DNA of 59,550 nt from Bacteroidota bacterium (GTDB lineage Bacteria > Bacteroidota > Rhodothermia > Rhodothermales > Bin80). The number at the start of each line of letters is the position of its first letter. The stretch's first letter is position 1. The notes below the pieces were generated by a model. That model was not told the DNA's origin. It searched no databases and saw nothing but the letters and a program-made list of their open reading frames with translations. Where the stretch lies: positions 1-59,550 of the forward strand of contig JAPOTS010000033.1 in assembly GCA_026709065.1 (NCBI GenBank), in the 5' to 3' direction. Below, one piece after another: positions 2,256 through 59,522 of the stretch. Both the position numbers and the translations under genes were made by a program.

Positions 2256-2738
2256 TTATATTGAAAAGGTTACAGATCCATCCAATCCGTGATAAAATAA
2301 AGTTCCGATGCTCATAACATCTCTTCCTATCAGTGCGATAAAACCCATTGACTCCAAACTTGCTCCCATTGCTCGCTCTACATTGATATTAAGTTGATCA
2401 GTTATTAACTTGCCTGAATATATGGGGGCAGAATGACCGGCATGAGAAGCCGAAGTCATACTAGTCTTACCTATTACAACGAGTCCTAATTTTTGTGCGG
2501 CCGTTATATCAAAGCAGCTAATGCTTGCACCAGTATCATAAAGAATCATACCATTAATGACTTTCCCAGATTGACTGCTGCTTGATTCTGCAAGTACTTT
2601 TTGATGAGCGTCAGAAAACGTCAAGGCACCAGGAACGCATGGACCACGCAAAGCAAGAGTTTCAGATGCCGTTAATTGCTTTTCAGCTCCGTGAGAATCT
2701 GTAGCAACCTCAGCAATTCTCGTTGTAATTACTGGCAT
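2256..2738 (-). CDS. Retropepsin-like aspartic protease
   Basis: A 160-residue protein with the two hallmarks of a single-domain retroviral-type aspartic protease: the active-site LYDTGAS at residues 66-72 (catalytic Asp68) and the hydrophobic-hydrophobic-G block ALIGRD at 135-140. Proteases of this fold act as homodimers, each subunit giving one Asp. No signal peptide is visible, so it is probably cytoplasmic. Its ATG overlaps the stop of the upstream small gene (2729-2992) by 10 bases, implying translational coupling. I recall such pairs as recurrent in bacterial accessory regions, but the substrate is unknown. The family call is confident; the role is open. Confidence 0.8.
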   Translation of the reverse strand: MPVITTRIAEVATDSHGAEKQLTASETLALRGPCVPGALTFSDAHQKVLAESSSSQSGKVINGMILYDTGASISCFDITAAQKLGLVVIGKTSMTSASHAGHSAPIYSGKLITDQLNINVERAMGASLESMGFIALIGRDVMSIGTLFYHGLDGSVTFSI

Positions 2739-2992
2739 TTCAAAATACCTAATGATAATGCAGGTATAGAAACCACAGGCTCATCTTCGCCAGACCTACG
2801 AACCAAAAATGGGCCTGATCCGAACTTACGAACTCCAGCGGTAATTGCATCTGCTATGGTCGGAAAATCTCCTTCAACCTTTTCACCGTGAATCAACAGC
2901 ACACGATTGGGATACTGAAGTAGCAGTTTCTCCCAGTTACTTTCAAAAAAAGCAGACTCTTTCTGCAATAGGTTTGTTGGAATATCTGTCAT
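2729..2992 (-). CDS. Small DUF5678-like protein paired with the retropepsin
   Basis: Read from the ATG at 2992 (MTDIPTN), the product has 87 residues. An upstream ATG at 3091 would add a Ser-rich stretch that looks untranslated. The core reads W-x-x-LL-x-x-YPNR, then a GEKVEG turn, a T-x-x-DAI-x-x-GV helix and GPFLVRR, ending in SIPALSLGIL. This pattern fits the small alpha/beta proteins grouped as DUF5678; the match is from memory. It overlaps the protease gene by 10 bases. It may be a partner or substrate of the protease, which is inference from the coupling. Confidence 0.6.
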   Translation of the reverse strand: MTDIPTNLLQKESAFFESNWEKLLLQYPNRVLLIHGEKVEGDFPTIADAITAGVRKFGSGPFLVRRSGEDEPVVSIPALSLGILKCQ

Positions 2993-3427
2993 GGAAATAA
3001 ATGATGATTCAGTGCAATTTACGAAAAATGAATGAATTTGTTCGGATCTTATAGTAGGACGGGAACTTGATGACAGAGATTGAGTTAGCATTTTCTTAAC
3101 CTATCATCTACTGCGATTACGGTGGTATCCTTTGCCCAACATCTAACAACAACTACCTCAGATGAGGTGGTTTCTAAGTCAAAAAAACAAAATGCCAACA
3201 TATGGGAGAGATGTGTCCATGCAATACGATTGACATCACTGCACTGGGCTAAGTTGTGATCAAAAATCACTAAAACGAGAGTATAAGTAATCCATTTGGG
3301 GTTGTTTCAACAGAAAAAAGCATGAGATTCTTGTAAGGTACAGTTTAGTGTAGAATCCCCATACGATGGGTTTGCAATCGGTCCTGATTTGGACAGAAAA
3401 TGAGTCCTCGTATCACTTTTTTGTCAA
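2993..3427. other. Gene-free stretch upstream of the retropepsin pair
   Basis: A 61-codon open frame at 3085-3270 on the minus strand shows no family features and is not called. The leftward promoter of the pair is expected here. The right end is the 3' exon flank of the group II intron. Confidence 0.4.
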
Positions 3428-4086
3428 GTAGCCCGGGGGAATTTCACCCCCGGGCCCTCACAGAACCGTACGTGAACCTCTTGATTCATACGGCTCTTTC
3501 TATGTTAACAGTCTTCCGACTGCTACCGTTTCCGTTTGTTGCCTCCTCCCCTTTCGGGTTGGGCGATCAACTTCATAGGCCAGACCTTTCGCTCCATTCC
3601 CATTACAGAAACTTCTTCACTACTACGGTCTGGTCCGCCCCTGTGGAATACATGGTACTCAATGTCTTGCGGGTACTGCCCGCTTGTCAGGCTCCCTTAA
3701 CAGCATCCCGACAGGTTCCCATGTTCCGTATGAGGGCTCAAGCCACAGTCTCGCCATGTTTTTGCCGGAGGCCAGTTAGCCAGTAATCAGGTCCCCGCTA
3801 ACCTTATCCTGGAGTTGGGTAGAAACCCCATTTTTGACACTCGTCTGAATCTTTTCAACACCTCATCCATGGTTCACTTGCGTTCGACTCCGTGACCCAC
3901 ACCTGACAGGTTCCTACACCCGCCTTTTCCCTAGACGCTCACCACCACACCTCTTAAATGCAGCTGCTGCGGGTGGTTTGCAACCTCCGCCTATACAGCG
4001 GTTGCGAGGGGACTACCCTCATCCTTCATACAGTTCATACAGCTTGGTTAAGTCATTGACTTACCTCCATGTACCTCGTGGCACAC
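3428..4086 (-). mobile_element. ORF-less group II intron
   Basis: The element starts with GTGTGCC at 4086, fitting the GUGYG 5' consensus, and ends with an AC at 3428 after a GC-rich domain VI. Domain V is at 3463-3496, a 34-base hairpin opening GAGCCGTATG and closing CACGTACGGTTC, the signature of the ribozyme core. At about 659 bases it has room for the ribozyme domains but no reverse transcriptase. A short open frame reading MGMERKVWPMKL just before domain V may be what is left of the region before the lost maturase. It lies 137 bases downstream of the ATPase gene on the same strand. It would need a maturase in trans to move. Exact ends rest on consensus, not on a splice test. Confidence 0.85.
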
Positions 4087-4222
4087 ATACCTCAGATGAT
4101 TCATGATAGAATCGGCGCGTTTGATGGCAAATTTAAGGCAGGTGCGAGCATTCCAAAGAATTAGCACCCGAATCTCCGGTCACGTAATACAGGATTCGCT
4201 TGGGGTGATATGGAACTTCAAT

Positions 4223-5350
4223 TCATTCATGCGCATAATTAGAGATCAACCAAGTACGCATAGACGGAATCGGAATATTATATACTTCATCTTGGCTGTG
4301 CAGGATTCCACGCTCCACCGCTTTCTTAAACAAGCTCTTCGCTTTGTCTGGATCATCAAATTTTCTTGATAAAAACTCCTCAATGTTTTCTTTATCTAAC
4401 CCATCTCTTGTTGTGGTATTCTTGAACAATCGTGCCAAACTAGAGCGTTCTTTTCTACTGATTCCTTTTGCTCGCTGTTTGTAATATGCCTCCCGTCTGT
4501 TCTCTCCCACTTGATATACAATTTCCAGACCTTCAAAGGTCATCTCCCCATGATCATTTTGGATCTGCTTTGCAGCGGCATCCCCATAAGCAATCATATG
4601 CTGAGGCCAACCATGTGTTTTTTGAGCGATCTGATCAATCCACTCATCAGGATTCCCTATAGCACCACCCTCTTTTACAATCCAATCATGAATAACTGCA
4701 CGCTCAGGCTCTTTGTCCAATGCTCCCAATTCCACAAAACACCCTCCCTTGAATCTCGAAACTCCCAGTGAACTAAAGGCTTCTTCAGTCTGTCCTAATC
4801 CAGCCGCTAAAAGAATGACAGGCTTGTTTAACTCCCCGTTATGAATCGCTTCAAGTAAGTCTCCTGCCTCATCAAACTGAGAATTTGAGAGTTCGTTAGC
4901 ATTTGAAAGCCTCTGTGCTTCATCTAAAACTAGAAGGAGCGGTTTTCTTTTTCTTTTTTCAACGACGTTGAGACTAGTTGTTGAACGTGCAGGATTAGAG
5001 AGCGTAACTTCTGCAGTAAAAGCCTCCAATAGACTTAAGGAGACGTTATCAATCCCCGCTAACTTTCCAAAACCAAGGGCCCGTAACATCTTTCCTTTAT
5101 CCCAGAGTGCACCCGTCTTGATTTTTGCGACATGCCATCCATTGCTACTTGCCAATTTTTCACACTGATCCAACAAAGCAGTTTTCCCCGCACCTGGTGC
5201 ACCTTGAATCAGAAATGTTGATCCCCCTTGCATATTGATTGACTCTTCAACAAGCGTTTCAAAGCTACTTAAAATCCGCTCCCGCCCGTGAAAATATTTG
5301 GCAGGCCCACGGTCTGCAACATAATCAGGTATATGGGAAATGTCAAGCAT
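4223..5350 (-). CDS. AAA-type P-loop ATPase of unknown role
   Basis: I start at the ATG at 5350 (MLDISHIPDYVAD) because the duplicated leader at 1321-1463 also keeps MLD and PDYVAD; open codons continue upstream to 5386. From that upstream start, Walker A is GAPGAGKT at 62-69 and Walker B is LLLVLDEAQ at 150-158, with an FHGRE block at 32-36 as in AAA_16/ORC-like NTPases. The C-terminal 120 residues are charged and helical, perhaps a winged helix, ending PSMRTWLISNYAHE. There is no membrane segment. A group II intron follows. Similar stand-alone ATPases occur in islands and may be sensors, but no partner gene is adjacent. The ATPase call is firm; the function is unknown. Confidence 0.75.
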   Translation of the reverse strand: MLDISHIPDYVADRGPAKYFHGRERILSSFETLVEESINMQGGSTFLIQGAPGAGKTALLDQCEKLASSNGWHVAKIKTGALWDKGKMLRALGFGKLAGIDNVSLSLLEAFTAEVTLSNPARSTTSLNVVEKRKRKPLLLVLDEAQRLSNANELSNSQFDEAGDLLEAIHNGELNKPVILLAAGLGQTEEAFSSLGVSRFKGGCFVELGALDKEPERAVIHDWIVKEGGAIGNPDEWIDQIAQKTHGWPQHMIAYGDAAAKQIQNDHGEMTFEGLEIVYQVGENRREAYYKQRAKGISRKERSSLARLFKNTTTRDGLDKENIEEFLSRKFDDPDKAKSLFKKAVERGILHSQDEVYNIPIPSMRTWLISNYAHE

Positions 5351-5452
5351 GACTATAATTACGTTATAGAACACCATTTGACACAATTAAGGCTTCTATG
5401 GTTCCGAAATGTATTTCCTTGAGATCAAACTCTTTATGTCAAGACATGTACC
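5312..5452 (-). promoter_or_regulatory. ATPase leader region, duplicated at 1321-1463
   Basis: The 5' end and upstream 100 bases of the ATPase gene recur at 1321-1463. The non-coding part (5388-5452) is well conserved between copies, suggesting a promoter or control site. No clear -35/-10 pair was identified. Confidence 0.5.
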
Positions 5453-6002
5453 GCGCAGACGAGAAGACACAGATAATCTTATAATTGTCTTGTTGATGTA
5501 TCAGAGATGATATTCAAATAGTTAGGTCAATTAAGCAGTGATCTCACCCATTCAAGATTGTTGGAATGACAATCCGATTGTTTTAAGCAACCTAGACTTC
5601 TACTGCAGGATGAGCCATCATAACTAAGGAACGTTGACTATCCTGACTTCCTTTGGATATTTCTGCGAGTCACTTTAGGTGAATGATAATTTTGAGGGTT
5701 CTACCATATAGGATACAGTAGAACCCTCAAAAACCAATCTTTGGTGAAACATCAGAGAATCATATCAATTGATATACCCCTGAATCACACTTACAATAGA
5801 TCAACAGGATGTTTTAGAAGTGATCAGATGATTAAGCCTTATAGATAGCGTGTATGACTATGATGGATCAATTAAGAAACTCTCAATATAGCTGTCATCA
5901 TCATTCGGTCGACAGCATCTCTATTCAATTTTCTGCTCCACCCCATCTTGTCGGTGAAACATAGACATTCAATCGCTTTCTACATTCTTAACTGGAGTTC
6001 GA
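5453..6002. other. Gene-free stretch downstream of the TonB receptor
   Basis: No coding region is recognised. It contains the strong hairpin at 5692-5730. Confidence 0.5.
5692..5730. repeat. Perfect 13-bp hairpin of the GGTTCT type
   Basis: TTGAGGGTTCTAC at 5692-5704 is perfectly complementary to GTAGAACCCTCAA at 5718-5730, with a 13-base loop. It lies about 270 bases past the stop of the leftward TonB receptor gene and could act as a weak terminator, but neither strand has a real T-run after the stem. The core GGTTCTACCA is shared with the dispersed GGTTCT elements. Confidence 0.65.
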
Positions 6003-8705
6003 CTATCTAAGCACTATCTGTAAACCAAGATTGAATGAGCGAGGCAAACCAAGGAAGACCTCAGCATCATCTGCGCGATTCAGTCCGGTCCCATTCCCTC
6101 TGAATGCATTAAACCTAGAATTATTGGTAGCGTCCTGTATATAAAAGGAATCAAATACGTTATAAATATTTGCAAATACACGAACTTGCTCGGGTCCTAA
6201 TTGAAGAGGGATTGTGTATCCGACATTGATATCAAAGACACTGTATCCAGGAACCTGCCACACAGGTACACCGGCCTGCTCACTATCTGTGCGACTGGTT
6301 GGATCAAAATCAGCATAGTAGTTTGAGTATGTCCGCCCAGTGAATTTGGCATACATTCCTTTCGTAGGAAATATACTGATGGCATAGGCGATCTGAGTTT
6401 GGGGAGCATCTCCCACTTTCAGGTCTTTCACATAGAGTGTGACATTCTCTTGGGTGGATGGATCCGAACGGTCAGGTGTATAATCAGCATTAACATCATC
6501 GGTGTATTTCCAATCACCAATTGAAAGTGCAATATCTCCCCGAATCAAAGAGGAAGGCTGATAAGCAATTTCTGCTTCTATGCCGCGGTGAATGGCATTT
6601 AAGCCTAGAAGATTGATAATTCCATCGTCACCATCTTCTTCAACAACCGTACGCGTAAATGTTCTGTCATTCCATACCGTATTGTACAGGCTCACCGTAG
6701 CATTCAATGTGCGGCTTGGGGACTCAAACGAAACCCCAGCCTCAAATGCTTGGAACTGCTCATTCTTCGGATCTGGATTCAGAACACCGGTTATATCATT
6801 AAGGGCTCCATCAAGAATTGGCACTTTTGAGACCAGTCCAAGATTCACAAAGACTGATAGCAATTCGCTGGTCTTATATGAAGCTCCACCTTTGATCTGG
6901 TAACCTCCAATCCTCTCAGTCTCTATGGTAAATGTGCTTCCATCACCTGCATCACGAAAGAAGTCCTCATGTGCATACTTGATCGTAGAGTATCCACCCA
7001 TTGCATAGGCATAAATTCTGTCGCCAGTATAGGCACCTTGAACATAGCCTCCTAACCAATCAACTGTATTCGTGTTATTATAATTAAACCTATCACCTGG
7101 CTGGAGAAGCTCTCCCCCTTCAGGCCAGAAATCACTATCAGATCGTCTGTAGCCACTTCCCCCAAGTAGGTCGCGGACAGTCCGGTAATGTTGAATTGAG
7201 GCCGTACGCCAATCAATGCCTGTCTCAACTGTTAATGACTCTGTAATATCATATCTGAATTTAGAAATCGCACCAATCGTCCACTGTACATTATGGCTGT
7301 TGCGCAAGATTCCCCGAGATTCACCATTTTCGGAATTAGCTGTAATGGTTGCATCATAATCTACGACGCGAGAGGGACCTTCATAATTCCACGCCATACG
7401 GCCATGCGTTCCTGTTCCACCTCCTTTACCCCCTGAATAATACAATACATTTGACCAAAGAGCCCGATCGCTTAACTGTGCAAAATAGTTCAGATTAATC
7501 TGGGGTTTATGAAAGAAATTCTCCCGCTCATTGATCTGATTCGCTGAGTTACGATTCACACTTCCAAAGCCATTGTGTTGCTGTCTTGAATAAGAAGATG
7601 ATACAGTGGACACATTCTGATTCCAACGTCTTCCTTGAGATGAATAGGTTTCAAAAATTTCATTAATAACAGCATCGTCAAGTCCATCCTTTTCAAAAAC
7701 CTTCCTCGCAAAATCATGATCATAAGCTGCAATGTTTTGGCGATACAGATTTTGCCCATGGCGCTGAGGTGCGCCAACTGCATAGAAATCAACCCGATGT
7801 CTGTCATTGATATTCCAAGCCGCTGCAGCATAGTAGGCCCACGCATCCGTCCAAGTCCCCTTATAGTAACCATTGCCACTTTTTCGTACGCCGTTAACAG
7901 TAAATGCAAAGCGATTATTGATCAATCCTGTAGAAGCCGATATGGTTGATTTTAGAAATCCGTCATTACCAAATTCCTGCTTCAATAAGATTCGGCGACG
8001 ATTAGCCGCTGGATCGGTAATGATATTGAGAGTCCCACCAATTGATGGGGTTGCCAGATTCACCGCGGACAGTCCTCTCTGAAGTTGAATAGATGTTGTA
8101 GCATCCCCTACACCATCCCAGTTTGACCAGTAAACCCAGCCATTCTCCATATCATTGACTGGGACACCGTTAATCATTACTGCAACATTCCTCTGATTGA
8201 AACCGCGTACATTCACGCGCGCATCGCCAGCACCTCCTCCCTGTGCAGTACTATATACAGATGGTGTTGTATTCAAAACTAGTGGAACATCACGAGAACC
8301 TAACTCGCGTTCAATCTGTAATTTTTCAATATCTGAGTAGGCAACTGGTGTTTGACGATTGAGTGCTCTGGAGGCAAATACTTCCATAGCCTCAAGGGCT
8401 TCACTTGAAGACACCAAAGAGAAATTAACCGTCAGTGGTTCATTGAAAAGTGTAATGACCTGAGATACTCCTTCAAAACCTAAATAAGAAATGTCAAGGG
8501 TATAATTACCCGGAGTCAATGACTCAATAGTGTAACTACCATTAGTGTCAGTCACCGAACCAGTCGCAGTTCCAGAGATAATCACGGTAGCACCAGGCAG
8601 AGGTAGACCCGTATCCGAATCAATAATTACTCCTGAAATTGTTCCCTGAGAAAATGCAACCGTAGCAATGAATAATGATGTAAGAAGTGTAGCAAATAGT
8701 TTCAT
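6003..8705 (-). CDS. TonB-dependent outer-membrane receptor
   Basis: A 900-residue receptor for energy-driven import across the outer membrane. A signal peptide ends at about residue 20 (VAFSQ). Residues 21-105 form a carboxypeptidase-regulatory-like beta domain (GTISGVIIDSDTGLPLPGA), then a plug domain (about 115-240, with VNVRGFNQRNVAVMINGVPV) and a long 22-strand-type barrel with alternating aromatic strands to the C-terminus. This layout is standard for Bacteroidota. No SusD-like or other partner follows, so the substrate (siderophore, vitamin, peptide or glycan) cannot be told. It appears to be a single-gene unit, transcribed leftward from the promoter candidate at 8724-8751. Confidence 0.92.
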   Translation of the reverse strand: MKLFATLLTSLFIATVAFSQGTISGVIIDSDTGLPLPGATVIISGTATGSVTDTNGSYTIESLTPGNYTLDISYLGFEGVSQVITLFNEPLTVNFSLVSSSEALEAMEVFASRALNRQTPVAYSDIEKLQIERELGSRDVPLVLNTTPSVYSTAQGGGAGDARVNVRGFNQRNVAVMINGVPVNDMENGWVYWSNWDGVGDATTSIQLQRGLSAVNLATPSIGGTLNIITDPAANRRRILLKQEFGNDGFLKSTISASTGLINNRFAFTVNGVRKSGNGYYKGTWTDAWAYYAAAAWNINDRHRVDFYAVGAPQRHGQNLYRQNIAAYDHDFARKVFEKDGLDDAVINEIFETYSSQGRRWNQNVSTVSSSYSRQQHNGFGSVNRNSANQINERENFFHKPQINLNYFAQLSDRALWSNVLYYSGGKGGGTGTHGRMAWNYEGPSRVVDYDATITANSENGESRGILRNSHNVQWTIGAISKFRYDITESLTVETGIDWRTASIQHYRTVRDLLGGSGYRRSDSDFWPEGGELLQPGDRFNYNNTNTVDWLGGYVQGAYTGDRIYAYAMGGYSTIKYAHEDFFRDAGDGSTFTIETERIGGYQIKGGASYKTSELLSVFVNLGLVSKVPILDGALNDITGVLNPDPKNEQFQAFEAGVSFESPSRTLNATVSLYNTVWNDRTFTRTVVEEDGDDGIINLLGLNAIHRGIEAEIAYQPSSLIRGDIALSIGDWKYTDDVNADYTPDRSDPSTQENVTLYVKDLKVGDAPQTQIAYAISIFPTKGMYAKFTGRTYSNYYADFDPTSRTDSEQAGVPVWQVPGYSVFDINVGYTIPLQLGPEQVRVFANIYNVFDSFYIQDATNNSRFNAFRGNGTGLNRADDAEVFLGLPRSFNLGLQIVLR

Positions 8706-56973: not shown

Positions 56974-57139
56974 GGGGAGTTATTCAATAAACTGTTTTTA
57001 ACAATGAGTTGAAGAATATGTGCTTATTGAGGCGCAGTTTTCAATGACGTAGATTGATTGGTTAACTTGATACAAAGACCTCTGTGACTACTGAATTAAT
57101 TTCAGAGCAGTCTCACATCTCGTCACTTTAAAGAAATCT

Positions 57140-57175
57140 GGTTCTACCACGTTTTGTGTGGAAACGATTGATTTT
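57140..57175 (+). repeat. GGTTCT element, plus-strand copy D
   Basis: GGTTCTACCACG is followed by a TGTGG that pairs with the CCAC, the same order as copies A and B but in the opposite orientation. A further GGAA/TTCC stem follows. Its right end is uncertain. Confidence 0.5.
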
Positions 57176-57429
57176 GCTTCCACCACATTTATTTTTTCAT
57201 ACGCGATAAATTTATAGAATCCTTGTTGCTTCACTCGCTAAATTAGGATCTCGCTGGTCTATTACAATGTGTGGAAATAGATAGGAGGCTACATCCAGTA
57301 GATGTTTATGTATCGAGTCTACAATGCATTATTTATCCACTGTCCAATGGGTAGAGAAAATGACGGAAAAATCAAAGAGATCAAAACTATTGAGAGAGGA
57401 TACAGAAGATTGAAAACTTCCGCGTTGTC

Positions 57430-57561
57430 ATCCTCTTCTTCTGCGGAGGTTTAGACCTGCACCCACAAATATCGTGGTAGAACCATTTAAAAATTTCAGA
57501 GTTGTTATCCTCTTGTTCTGTGATAGTCTGGACCTCTACCCATACGATTCATGATAGAACC
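57430..57561 (-). repeat. Tandem GGTTCT elements B and C, 77-base period
   Basis: Copies at 57430-57484 and 57507-57561 are offset by 77 bases. B is nearly identical to copy A at 1-55; C is diverged. Between B and C the CCAC/GTGG stem becomes TCAT/ATGG, which still pairs, suggesting structure. Because 77 is not a multiple of 3, this is not a coding repeat. Confidence 0.65.
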
Positions 57562-57862: not shown

Positions 57863-58916
57863 TGAGCAATCGGATATGAAAAGAAGTATCAGAGCCTTAA
57901 ATTCAAGCGATATAATGCACAGCGGGCAGGAAGTGAAGAGAAAAAGCGTAGACGATCCAAAAACCCGAATTATCGTGCTCCGAATCAACCAATTGCAAAA
58001 CTTAAAAAAGTTTATACAAGGGTTGAAATAATTGCTCCTAACGTATTTTCAATGATTTAGAATCCTGATGAAACGATCCGTTTCTTTAATGAATTAGAAA
58101 ACGCTTTTGAAAAAATTTCTCGTCACAGACTGGTATTCATTAACCTGAATTCTGTGGATGAAATCACACCTGAATCTATAGTGCTTCTAATTTCAAAGCT
58201 TGATGAAATGAGCCCTAATCACCAAAGACTTGTGTATGGGAACGTTCCCAGAAATGATGTTGCTCAGGATATGCTTGCTGGCTGGTTCTGGATTTTACGA
58301 TTTTGTCAAGTCAAATGTCAGAATTAATAATTCCGCAATAGGAATCATAGAGAAGTGTGGAGACAGTTATGTTGATCCTGAAAAAGTAGCAGAATTATTA
58401 GATATGGTGGCAAGACACATGAAAATGACTGTTGATCAGGAAGATGGTCATCAGACTACTGCTATTGAGTGCATGACCAACACTATAGAACATGCGTCGG
58501 GAAATCAACCATCACGCAAGTGTGAGAAAAAATGGTGGTTTTCGGTTTATTATGATACACGAAACAATGTGGCCAAATTTGCATTCGTTGATACTGGTAT
58601 AGGCATTTTCGAAAGCCTAAAAAGGCGAAGGTTTCCATTATTTGGTTCTATAAAGAGATCTGAAATTTTAAAGTTGTTACTGGCTGATTCAACAGACAGA
58701 AATTCAATAAAACCCAAAGATCGCACCAGTACTAAATTGAGTCATCGAGGAAAGGGATTACCAAACATTGCAAGACGTAATCGGTTAAGAATAATCAGCA
58801 ATAATGTGTATGCTGATGTGGAAAATAATCAATACCTAATGATGGAACAAAATTTTTCGGGAAGTATAATATGCTGGAAATATTCAACACAAAATCATGA
58901 ACAGCACGATGACTGA
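57863..58916 (+). pseudogene. HATPase-domain protein, broken by a stop and a frameshift
   Basis: Frame one (57863-58280) reads an Arg/Lys-rich start, KVYTRVEIIAPNVFSMI, an in-frame TAG at 58058-58060, then NPDETIRFFNELENAF and LVYGNVPRNDVAQDMLAG. A tandem GCTG duplication at 58277-58284 shifts the frame by +1. The continuation to 58916 reads AGSGFYDFVKSN, the histidine-kinase-like ATPase motifs TAIECMTNTIEHA (N-box) and FVDTGIGIF (G1), and HRGKGLPNIARR (G2). The first 140 residues look like a STAS-type sensor part. No phospho-accepting His domain is evident. It overlaps the DUF4325 gene by 8 bases. A TTG at 58230 could give a shortened product with the ATPase domain alone. Confidence 0.72.
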
Positions 58917-59235
58917 ACAAAAATTTACCCTCCATGTGCGTGAATTTACAACTACTCCTGGACCGCGCTTTAAGGAGGACGGTCATTATTCTGGTCAGGA
59001 GTTTCGAGAGGATTATCTTCTTCCAAGATACCTAGAAGCCGTCAAAAGTGGGGCATGTTTACATGTCATACTAAAAGCTACAAAGGGTTACGCCTCTTCA
59101 TTTCTGGAAGAAGCCTTTGGAGGTCTTGTTCGCCAGGGGTATAAAAAGTCCGAAATAAGAAAGCATCTTAAAATCCATTCTAACGACAGACCTTGGTATG
59201 AACCAGAAATTTACAGCTATATAGATGAGGCTTAG
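58909..59235 (+). CDS. DUF4325 (STAS-like) protein
   Basis: A 108-residue protein from the ATG at 58909 (MTEQKF), which sits in an ATGACTGA overlap with the end of the HATPase gene; an ATG at 58897 is possible but less tightly coupled. PGPRFKEDGHYSGQEFREDYLLP and ATKGYASSFLEEAFGGLVR are the two conserved blocks of DUF4325, a STAS-like domain. HATPase plus DUF4325 pairs recur in bacterial islands and resemble partner-switching modules (ATPase plus anti-factor), although the target is not known. The gene itself is intact. Confidence 0.8.
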   Translation: MTEQKFTLHVREFTTTPGPRFKEDGHYSGQEFREDYLLPRYLEAVKSGACLHVILKATKGYASSFLEEAFGGLVRQGYKKSEIRKHLKIHSNDRPWYEPEIYSYIDEA

Positions 59236-59267
59236 CTGACCCATTCCAATCAAAAAGAATCAACTTC

Positions 59268-59522
59268 ATGGACTGGGTAGACACTCAACAAATAGAAATT
59301 GTAGAACTTTTACAATTAGTTGTATCTATCGTTCTCGCAGTTCTACTGGCCAGGATAGGATGGCGCTTCACCAATATCAGAGCTGCCAAAGATCTGGTCC
59401 TTGAAGAAGGTAGGAGATCTCTACAAGTCTGTAATAGTATTAGAAAAGAGCTGCGCAAGATACCTGATTCTGAAATTCCCAAATATGAAAATTTTGGATC
59501 TACAACTTTTTTAGTGGGTTAA
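59268..59522 (+). CDS. Short membrane protein, truncated by a GGTTCT element
   Basis: An 84-residue open frame with one membrane helix at about residues 14-31 (LLQLVVSIVLAVLLARIG), followed by a charged helical segment (LEEGRRSLQVCNSIRKELRK). The last residues, NFGSTTFLVG and the stop, come from the repeat that begins at 59496, so the native C-terminus is lost. It follows the DUF4325 gene by 32 bases and may be the third member of that cassette. No family recognised. Confidence 0.5.
   Translation: MDWVDTQQIEIVELLQLVVSIVLAVLLARIGWRFTNIRAAKDLVLEEGRRSLQVCNSIRKELRKIPDSEIPKYENFGSTTFLVG

Follow-up and report, generated by a model that had tools for sequence, protein, structure and literature searches.

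The window, by which we mean the whole 59,550-nucleotide stretch of contig JAPOTS010000033.1 that was analysed, carries at its extreme end, which is also the end of the contig, the frames of a three-gene cassette lying in a row on the + strand. The genes are referred to here as K (a kinase-like protein), S (its DUF4325 partner) and M (a membrane protein). When the frames were compared with the family profile, K was found in the form of three collinear fragments, matching profile positions 5-65, 67-137 and 136-351. The first fragment (57866-58057, +) covers a basic N-terminal stretch (KKRRRSKNPNYR...) and the start of a STAS domain (i-E 1.1e-5) and is missing an in-frame start codon. It is broken off by a single in-frame TAG inside the profile match (58058-58060, +), after which the second fragment (58061-58324, +; open ORF from 58154) holds the remaining part of the STAS domain as far as a frameshift close to 58,277 (i-E 1.2e-12). 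The third fragment (58212-58916, +) encodes a SpoIIAB/RsbW-like GHKL domain, with its profile match at 58212-58913 (i-E 1.4e-43). The GHKL ATPase frame (58230-58916) gave a Pfam HATPase_c_2 match that is under the cut-off (E 0.0056), and it contains an N-box of the form E-x3-N-x3-H (around 58467-58493), a D-x-G box (around 58590) and an RGKG motif (around 58746-58757), the motif residues being those that are invariant across the K family.

The second gene, S (58897-59235, +), is an intact DUF4325, STAS-like protein of 112 aa (PF14213, E 3.9e-8, above the Pfam cut-off), in which the serine predicted from the family alignment to accept a phosphate, Ser68, is encoded at 59098-59100 (+). An alternative ATG start is found at 58909. 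It was previously suggested that K and S share an 8-base overlap; this is so if S starts at the ATG at 58909, but a start at the ATG at 58897 lengthens it to 20 bases. The window S also departs from the family at near-fixed sites, such as K60 where 93% of the family have D and A61 where 85% have G, as is expected in the absence of selection. The third gene, M (59268-59522, +), retains a hydrophobic N-terminal transmembrane segment only (profile 7-42 of 157, i-E 0.0015), and at 84 aa it is short against the 143 aa of a related copy described below and the approximately 165 aa of the family. A small membrane protein does therefore stand third, as proposed in the first-pass annotation, but in truncated form; similarly, the ATPase-DUF4325-membrane protein cassette described there was recovered in its order and in its S gene, but not with K as one open frame. 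Since K is split by a TAG and a frameshift and has lost its start, M is truncated and S has drifted, the window cassette reads as a pseudogenised relic in which S alone is whole, and this copy itself cannot function.

Upstream of the cassette lies a 347-bp MITE-like element (57139-57485, no strand assigned) with 23-bp inverted terminal repeats that are 87% complementary. About a dozen near-full-length copies (84-94%) were found in the genome of the window, and the end sequence of the element was found at several contig ends, including positions 1-56 of the window contig, so that the element probably breaks the assembly. The cassette had been described as lying next to structured repeats. The repeat does adjoin it, but is a separate, unrelated MITE and not a part of the cassette, and an Rfam search of the cassette region returned nothing.

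It could be argued that the breaks are sequencing errors or recoding and that the copy is functional, as the assembly is a draft and the contig stops 28 bases past the M ORF. We consider this very improbable. The lesions in K and M are independent of each other, whereas the neighbouring arginase, mntR and ABC transporter genes are intact, and two further broken copies were found. Contig C115 of the same genome begins with a second, fragmented copy of S and M, which is more decayed than the window copy and has Leu at the position of the conserved Ser. In a Bacteroidota MAG of another genus of the same family (G012, JAPPNA010000050), homologues of the ABC transporter, arginase and mntR are followed by the cassette at the equivalent place, with a TGA and a TAG within the N-terminal stretch of K and Ala for the conserved Ser of S. 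In five genomes of the same genus (G001, G002, G003, G005 and G006) the mntR-arginase neighbourhood is present and DUF4325 was not found. The simplest reading is a single old insertion at the mntR-arginase site that has been decaying and was mostly lost. On contig C115 (L260, 1-6558), an ORF (2487-3767) whose product resembles an AlbA_2/Schlafen-type protein lies approximately 2 kb from the S/M relic, together with a 946-aa ORF (3718-6558) that looks like a PHP-domain AAA protein of the TrlF type. Reading the ORFs by sequence alone, the region could possibly be an accessory or defence region.

Intact copies, which the first-pass annotation had proposed to look for, were found in many phyla, on plasmids and in prophages. 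The S profile detected 337 relatives on contigs from genomes and 205 on viral ones, of which 80 of each were kept, in addition to 10 plasmid and 2 phage records. K lies directly upstream of S in 153 of the 171 DUF4325 ORFs of related loci, with five further K genes recovered by profile and one frameshifted, and an ORF of approximately 165 aa closely follows the 3' end of S in 166 of the 171. In the non-redundant set of 119 loci whose three genes all read on the + strand, K and S overlap in 95 and lie within 30 bp of each other in the rest, while S and M overlap or are separated by at most 30 bp in 116. This gene order is far beyond chance, and K-S-M is a conserved operon. The three proteins also co-diverge, with distance correlations of r 0.62, 0.70 and 0.50 for K-S, K-M and S-M, whereas permutation gave maxima near 0.05. 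The carriers in the K tree belong to 13 phyla or more. Phylum changes number 16 on this tree, where 12 is the minimum; the K family is accordingly old and has been only moderately exchanged among phyla, recent transfer not being proved by the tree. The cassette proteins are already held in PHROG families 3364, 5816, 34946 and 35480, as clusters to which neither a function nor an operon logic is attached. When a proviral cassette (L144) was used as a DNA query, no E. coli genomes with the cassette were found. On plasmid p4 of Leptospira interrogans (L014) an intact-looking cassette has behind it a nucleotidyltransferase/HepT-like pair that is probably a toxin-antitoxin locus. An intact copy is also carried by Mucilaginibacter frigoritolerans. 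Vibrio parahaemolyticus CP099927 (L012) carries an orphan S-M pair, with K absent and Gly for the conserved Ser; three other Vibrio records, two of V. parahaemolyticus and one of V. vulnificus, also gave S matches at the same identity, 44%.

K is a protein of approximately 360 aa, in which a basic helix at the N-terminus is followed by a STAS domain and then by a GHKL domain of the SpoIIAB/RsbW type. In an AlphaFold2 model of K (mean pLDDT 91, pTM 0.85), a long N-terminal helix stands before an alpha/beta domain of STAS size, with the GHKL domain after it. The fold of the GHKL part was best matched by SpoIIAB (1l0o, Z 13.3, 134 residues aligned at 3.0 A) and RsbW (6m37, Z 11.1), with CheA behind, and in a sequence search of the PDB the best hits were to SpoIIAB (E 0.0023). 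The middle part of K aligned with an anti-anti-sigma profile (hhalign E 9.7e-6, probability 83%). The E and N of the N-box, the D-x-G and the last G of RG-x-G are invariant in 84 K sequences. It was proposed earlier that the window ATPase lacks the phospho-acceptor domain of histidine kinases, and none is present. Judged by its modelled fold, its E-x3-N N-box, its D-x-G and G-x-G motifs and this missing domain, K is predicted to belong to the SpoIIAB/RsbW type. In several relatives of the same order the K profile spans a short STAS gene, a stop (at approximately profile 76-218) and the next frame, as though K were a fusion of a classical STAS/kinase gene pair. The N-terminal extension (mean 57 aa) is strongly basic, with a median net charge of +14; therefore, nucleic acid is a likely ligand of K.

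We know of no function assigned to DUF4325, which is a common domain. The S proteins are approximately 110 aa long and end after DUF4325, without a C-terminal winged helix or other DNA-binding domain. The family alignment revealed a conserved N-terminal motif, R-x4-G-x2-SG-x2-FR, and a near-fixed pattern, [V/I]-x-LDGT-x-GY-x-[S/T]-S-FLEEAFGGL-x-R. By hhalign, S gave no significant match to classical STAS or anti-anti-sigma proteins, nor was there a significant match of S to PDB sequences; the designation STAS-like rests on the Pfam description of PF14213 and on the SS-x-L motif, and is to be taken as putative. The second Ser of the pattern, which is Ser68 in the window, was found in 163 of 166 S proteins. 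By motif, it corresponds to the phospho-serine of SpoIIAA (Ser58, in DSSGLG), and it is the predicted phospho-acceptor of S. The three exceptions are L012 and L093, in which K was not found, and L016, in which K has two stops. Loss of the Ser was thus seen in none of approximately 153 loci with an intact K and in 3 of 11 without one (Fisher approximately 2e-4, by our own arithmetic and in a post hoc comparison), and the conserved Ser depends on K. In relatives of the same order, single chains were also found with the arrangement HTH-GHKL-DUF4325 (L004) or STAS-GHKL-DUF4325 (L005 and L006). These fused forms suggest that the kinase and DUF4325 parts may work together. In another contig (L003, G029 contig C35) a different STAS-GHKL and DUF4325 pair lies just upstream of an ORF resembling a DUF1156-type DNA methylase, suggesting that kinase/DUF4325 pairs are used beside modification systems.

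The third protein, M, is approximately 165 aa long, with an N-terminal membrane helix and a helical bundle. Of 159 M sequences, 149 fall in one linked family, and in 93% one position is occupied by Thr or Ser. In 113 of 120 a hydrophobic segment lies close to the N-terminus, and because Lys and Arg are more frequent after this segment than before it (mean 3.2 vs 1.2), it is suggested that the C-terminal domain is cytosolic. The model of M is all-helical (pLDDT 92). A Foldseek search of the PDB with this model gave no match at E 0.001, only chance helical bundles, and no PIN domain, other recurrent Pfam match or recognised toxin family was found for M.

Kinase-STAS pairs with a known output were recently described. 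In CapKS and VapKSC, a STAS-GHKL kinase phosphorylates a STAS partner, which leads to the release of a repressor or a PIN toxin (Chambers et al., EMBO J, June 2026, PMC13373217). In that study it was shown that CapK is activated by ssDNA, that CapS, with a winged helix at its C-terminus, acts as the repressor of an immune operon downstream of it, and that VapKSC protects against phage Bas42, while DUF4325 and a membrane output go unmentioned in its main text (PMC13373217). The earlier statement that no output had been established for such pairs does not hold for the wider kind, where transcription and a PIN toxin are proven outputs and VapKSC gives phage protection, but it does stand for the subfamily with a membrane protein, for which we found no published function. 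Like VapKSC, K-S-M is a three-gene operon with a STAS-GHKL kinase, a small STAS or STAS-like protein with a conserved Ser/Thr and a third gene; unlike VapKSC, its third gene encodes a small membrane protein and not a PIN nuclease, its S is a DUF4325 protein with a conserved N-terminal motif, and its K has a very basic helix before the STAS domain. As in CapK-CapS, the gene for the STAS or STAS-like protein is directly 3' of that for the STAS-GHKL kinase, but S lacks the winged helix of CapS, and M is a fixed partner. Activation by ssDNA, as in VapKSC and CapKS, would be compatible with the basic N-terminal helix of K; no counterparts in K could be assigned to the ssDNA-binding Trp/Phe of CapK/VapK. 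As it has neither the PIN toxin of VapKSC nor the winged helix of CapKS, we class K-S-M as a variant of the kinase-STAS immune switch and as a member of neither. No paper on the K-S-M cassette was found by a literature search, most subscription papers and preprints being outside its reach; the system is real and widespread and, as far as the searched literature shows, undescribed.

Like SpoIIAB-SpoIIAA and RsbW-RsbV, the cassette combines a serine-kinase fold of the GHKL type, with an N-box, and a STAS-like partner whose Ser stands where a helix begins. Since K is most like SpoIIAB and RsbW, it is conceivable that the pair belongs to an ordinary sigma-factor partner-switching locus, the situation that the first-pass annotation had named as fatal to its reading of a transplanted module. 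This appears most improbable: a Sigma70_r2 gene was found within 30 kb of the cassette in 0 of 14 genomes, the nearest on the same contig being approximately 34 kb away, and the genome of the window has separate classical anti-anti-sigma genes. Furthermore, K-S-M differs from the classical systems in having a STAS domain fused to the kinase, a second STAS-like partner and a membrane protein as its constant third gene, and in having no sigma factor. A partner-switching module, as had been suggested, and one working outside sigma control, is well supported by the SpoIIAB/RsbW-like K, the conserved Ser of S, the lack of a nearby sigma-70 gene in the 14 genomes and the carriage on prophages and plasmids.

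The setting of the intact cassettes points to mobile elements. Among 35 non-redundant viral loci with enough flanking sequence, a gene matching a CI-type repressor profile lies directly upstream of the cassette in at least 11 and is the second gene in 3 more. Pfam searches of 54 upstream neighbours of proviral cassettes gave 12 Peptidase_S24 and 6 P22_Cro matches, and PHROGs assigned 16 upstream neighbours to 'transcriptional repressor' and 11 to 'CI-like repressor'; the downstream neighbours include terminases, portals and integrases. In Marinobacter phage AS1, a sequenced isolate, the operon lies beside Cro/CI, and this phage was the only one of 50,697 phage records to be matched by K. By our estimate, chance alone would seldom place a gene just after cI in a prophage of the typical 50 genes. 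The position just after cI is that of rexAB in lambda. By analogy, K-S-M would resemble RexAB in being made of prophage genes for a cytosolic sensor and a membrane protein, the likeness lying in the position after cI and the membrane helix; no sequence relation was seen, and RexAB has no kinase/STAS switch. In a prophage of Pseudomonas putida, RexAB was found to consist of a DNA-binding sensor and a membrane-damaging effector (PMC12894663), and this system is the best functional analogy for the proposed output of K-S-M.

The same neighbourhood could be read differently, with K-S as a prophage or plasmid regulatory switch that controls lysogeny or induction, and M as a membrane anchor or sensor that feeds K-S and not as an effector. 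The place beside cI/Cro in many prophages and in phage AS1 agrees with such a role, as does the fact that CapS, a relative in kind, is a repressor of transcription. We nevertheless regard it as unlikely, given that S, unlike CapS, has no DNA-binding domain added to its DUF4325 and that the cassette was also found on plasmids and on bacterial contigs without a repressor alongside. Some of the plasmid copies are near other toxin-antitoxin pairs, and VapKSC is built likewise with a PIN toxin, both of which would suit a toxin-antitoxin stabiliser of mobile elements, with M as toxin, S as antitoxin, K as trigger and phage defence a by-product at most. Its mechanism overlaps with that of a defence switch and only the selected purpose differs, but the cI-operon position favours a function for the lysogen, and a stabiliser seems to us rather improbable. 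PADLOC 2.0.0 had no model or meaningful match for K, S or M. In the PADLOC comparison of 148 flank proteins with 145 matched controls from the same contigs, 61 vs 8 families were obtained, which is suggestive of defence islands, although many models overlap on one protein and the gain in proteins is small or unproven; three restriction-modification types are among the defence families near the cassette.

The explanation that we prefer, and to which we would give about an even chance, is that K-S-M is a mobile switch in which K and S control M as a defence effector, the window holding a dead copy. In this proposal K, in which the kinase is joined to a STAS domain of its own and to a basic helix, would be a soluble SpoIIAB/RsbW-like serine kinase. 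Infection would most likely activate it through a signal from nucleic acid or damage, as ssDNA activates CapK. Active K would phosphorylate S on the conserved Ser (in the window copy, Ser68), as SpoIIAB does SpoIIAA. Unphosphorylated S would keep M inactive by way of the cytosolic helical domain of M, and phosphorylation of S would free M, leading to a halt of growth or damage to the membrane, by which the infection would be aborted. Carried by plasmids and prophages, and often placed right after cI, the cassette would amount to a Rex-like system of exclusion with a kinase switch as its gate. We infer the kinase reaction, the signal, the binding of S to M and the role of M as effector from homology, conservation and position. 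Tentatively, and with somewhat less than even confidence, we propose that K-S-M makes up a so far undescribed, phylum-wide class of systems for phage defence or superinfection exclusion, in which the membrane effector is freed from its DUF4325 partner by a SpoIIAB-like kinase. Sitting in the cI operon of many prophages, it would be the kinase-gated equivalent of RexAB.

Three orphan families that recur in phages as 'unknown' are thereby brought together in one operon with a testable logic. The operon links to the CapKS and VapKSC switches described in 2026, to which the membrane protein would add a third kind of output. Finally, the location of the operon behind cI suggests that prophages may quite generally guard their host through membrane effectors gated by a kinase.
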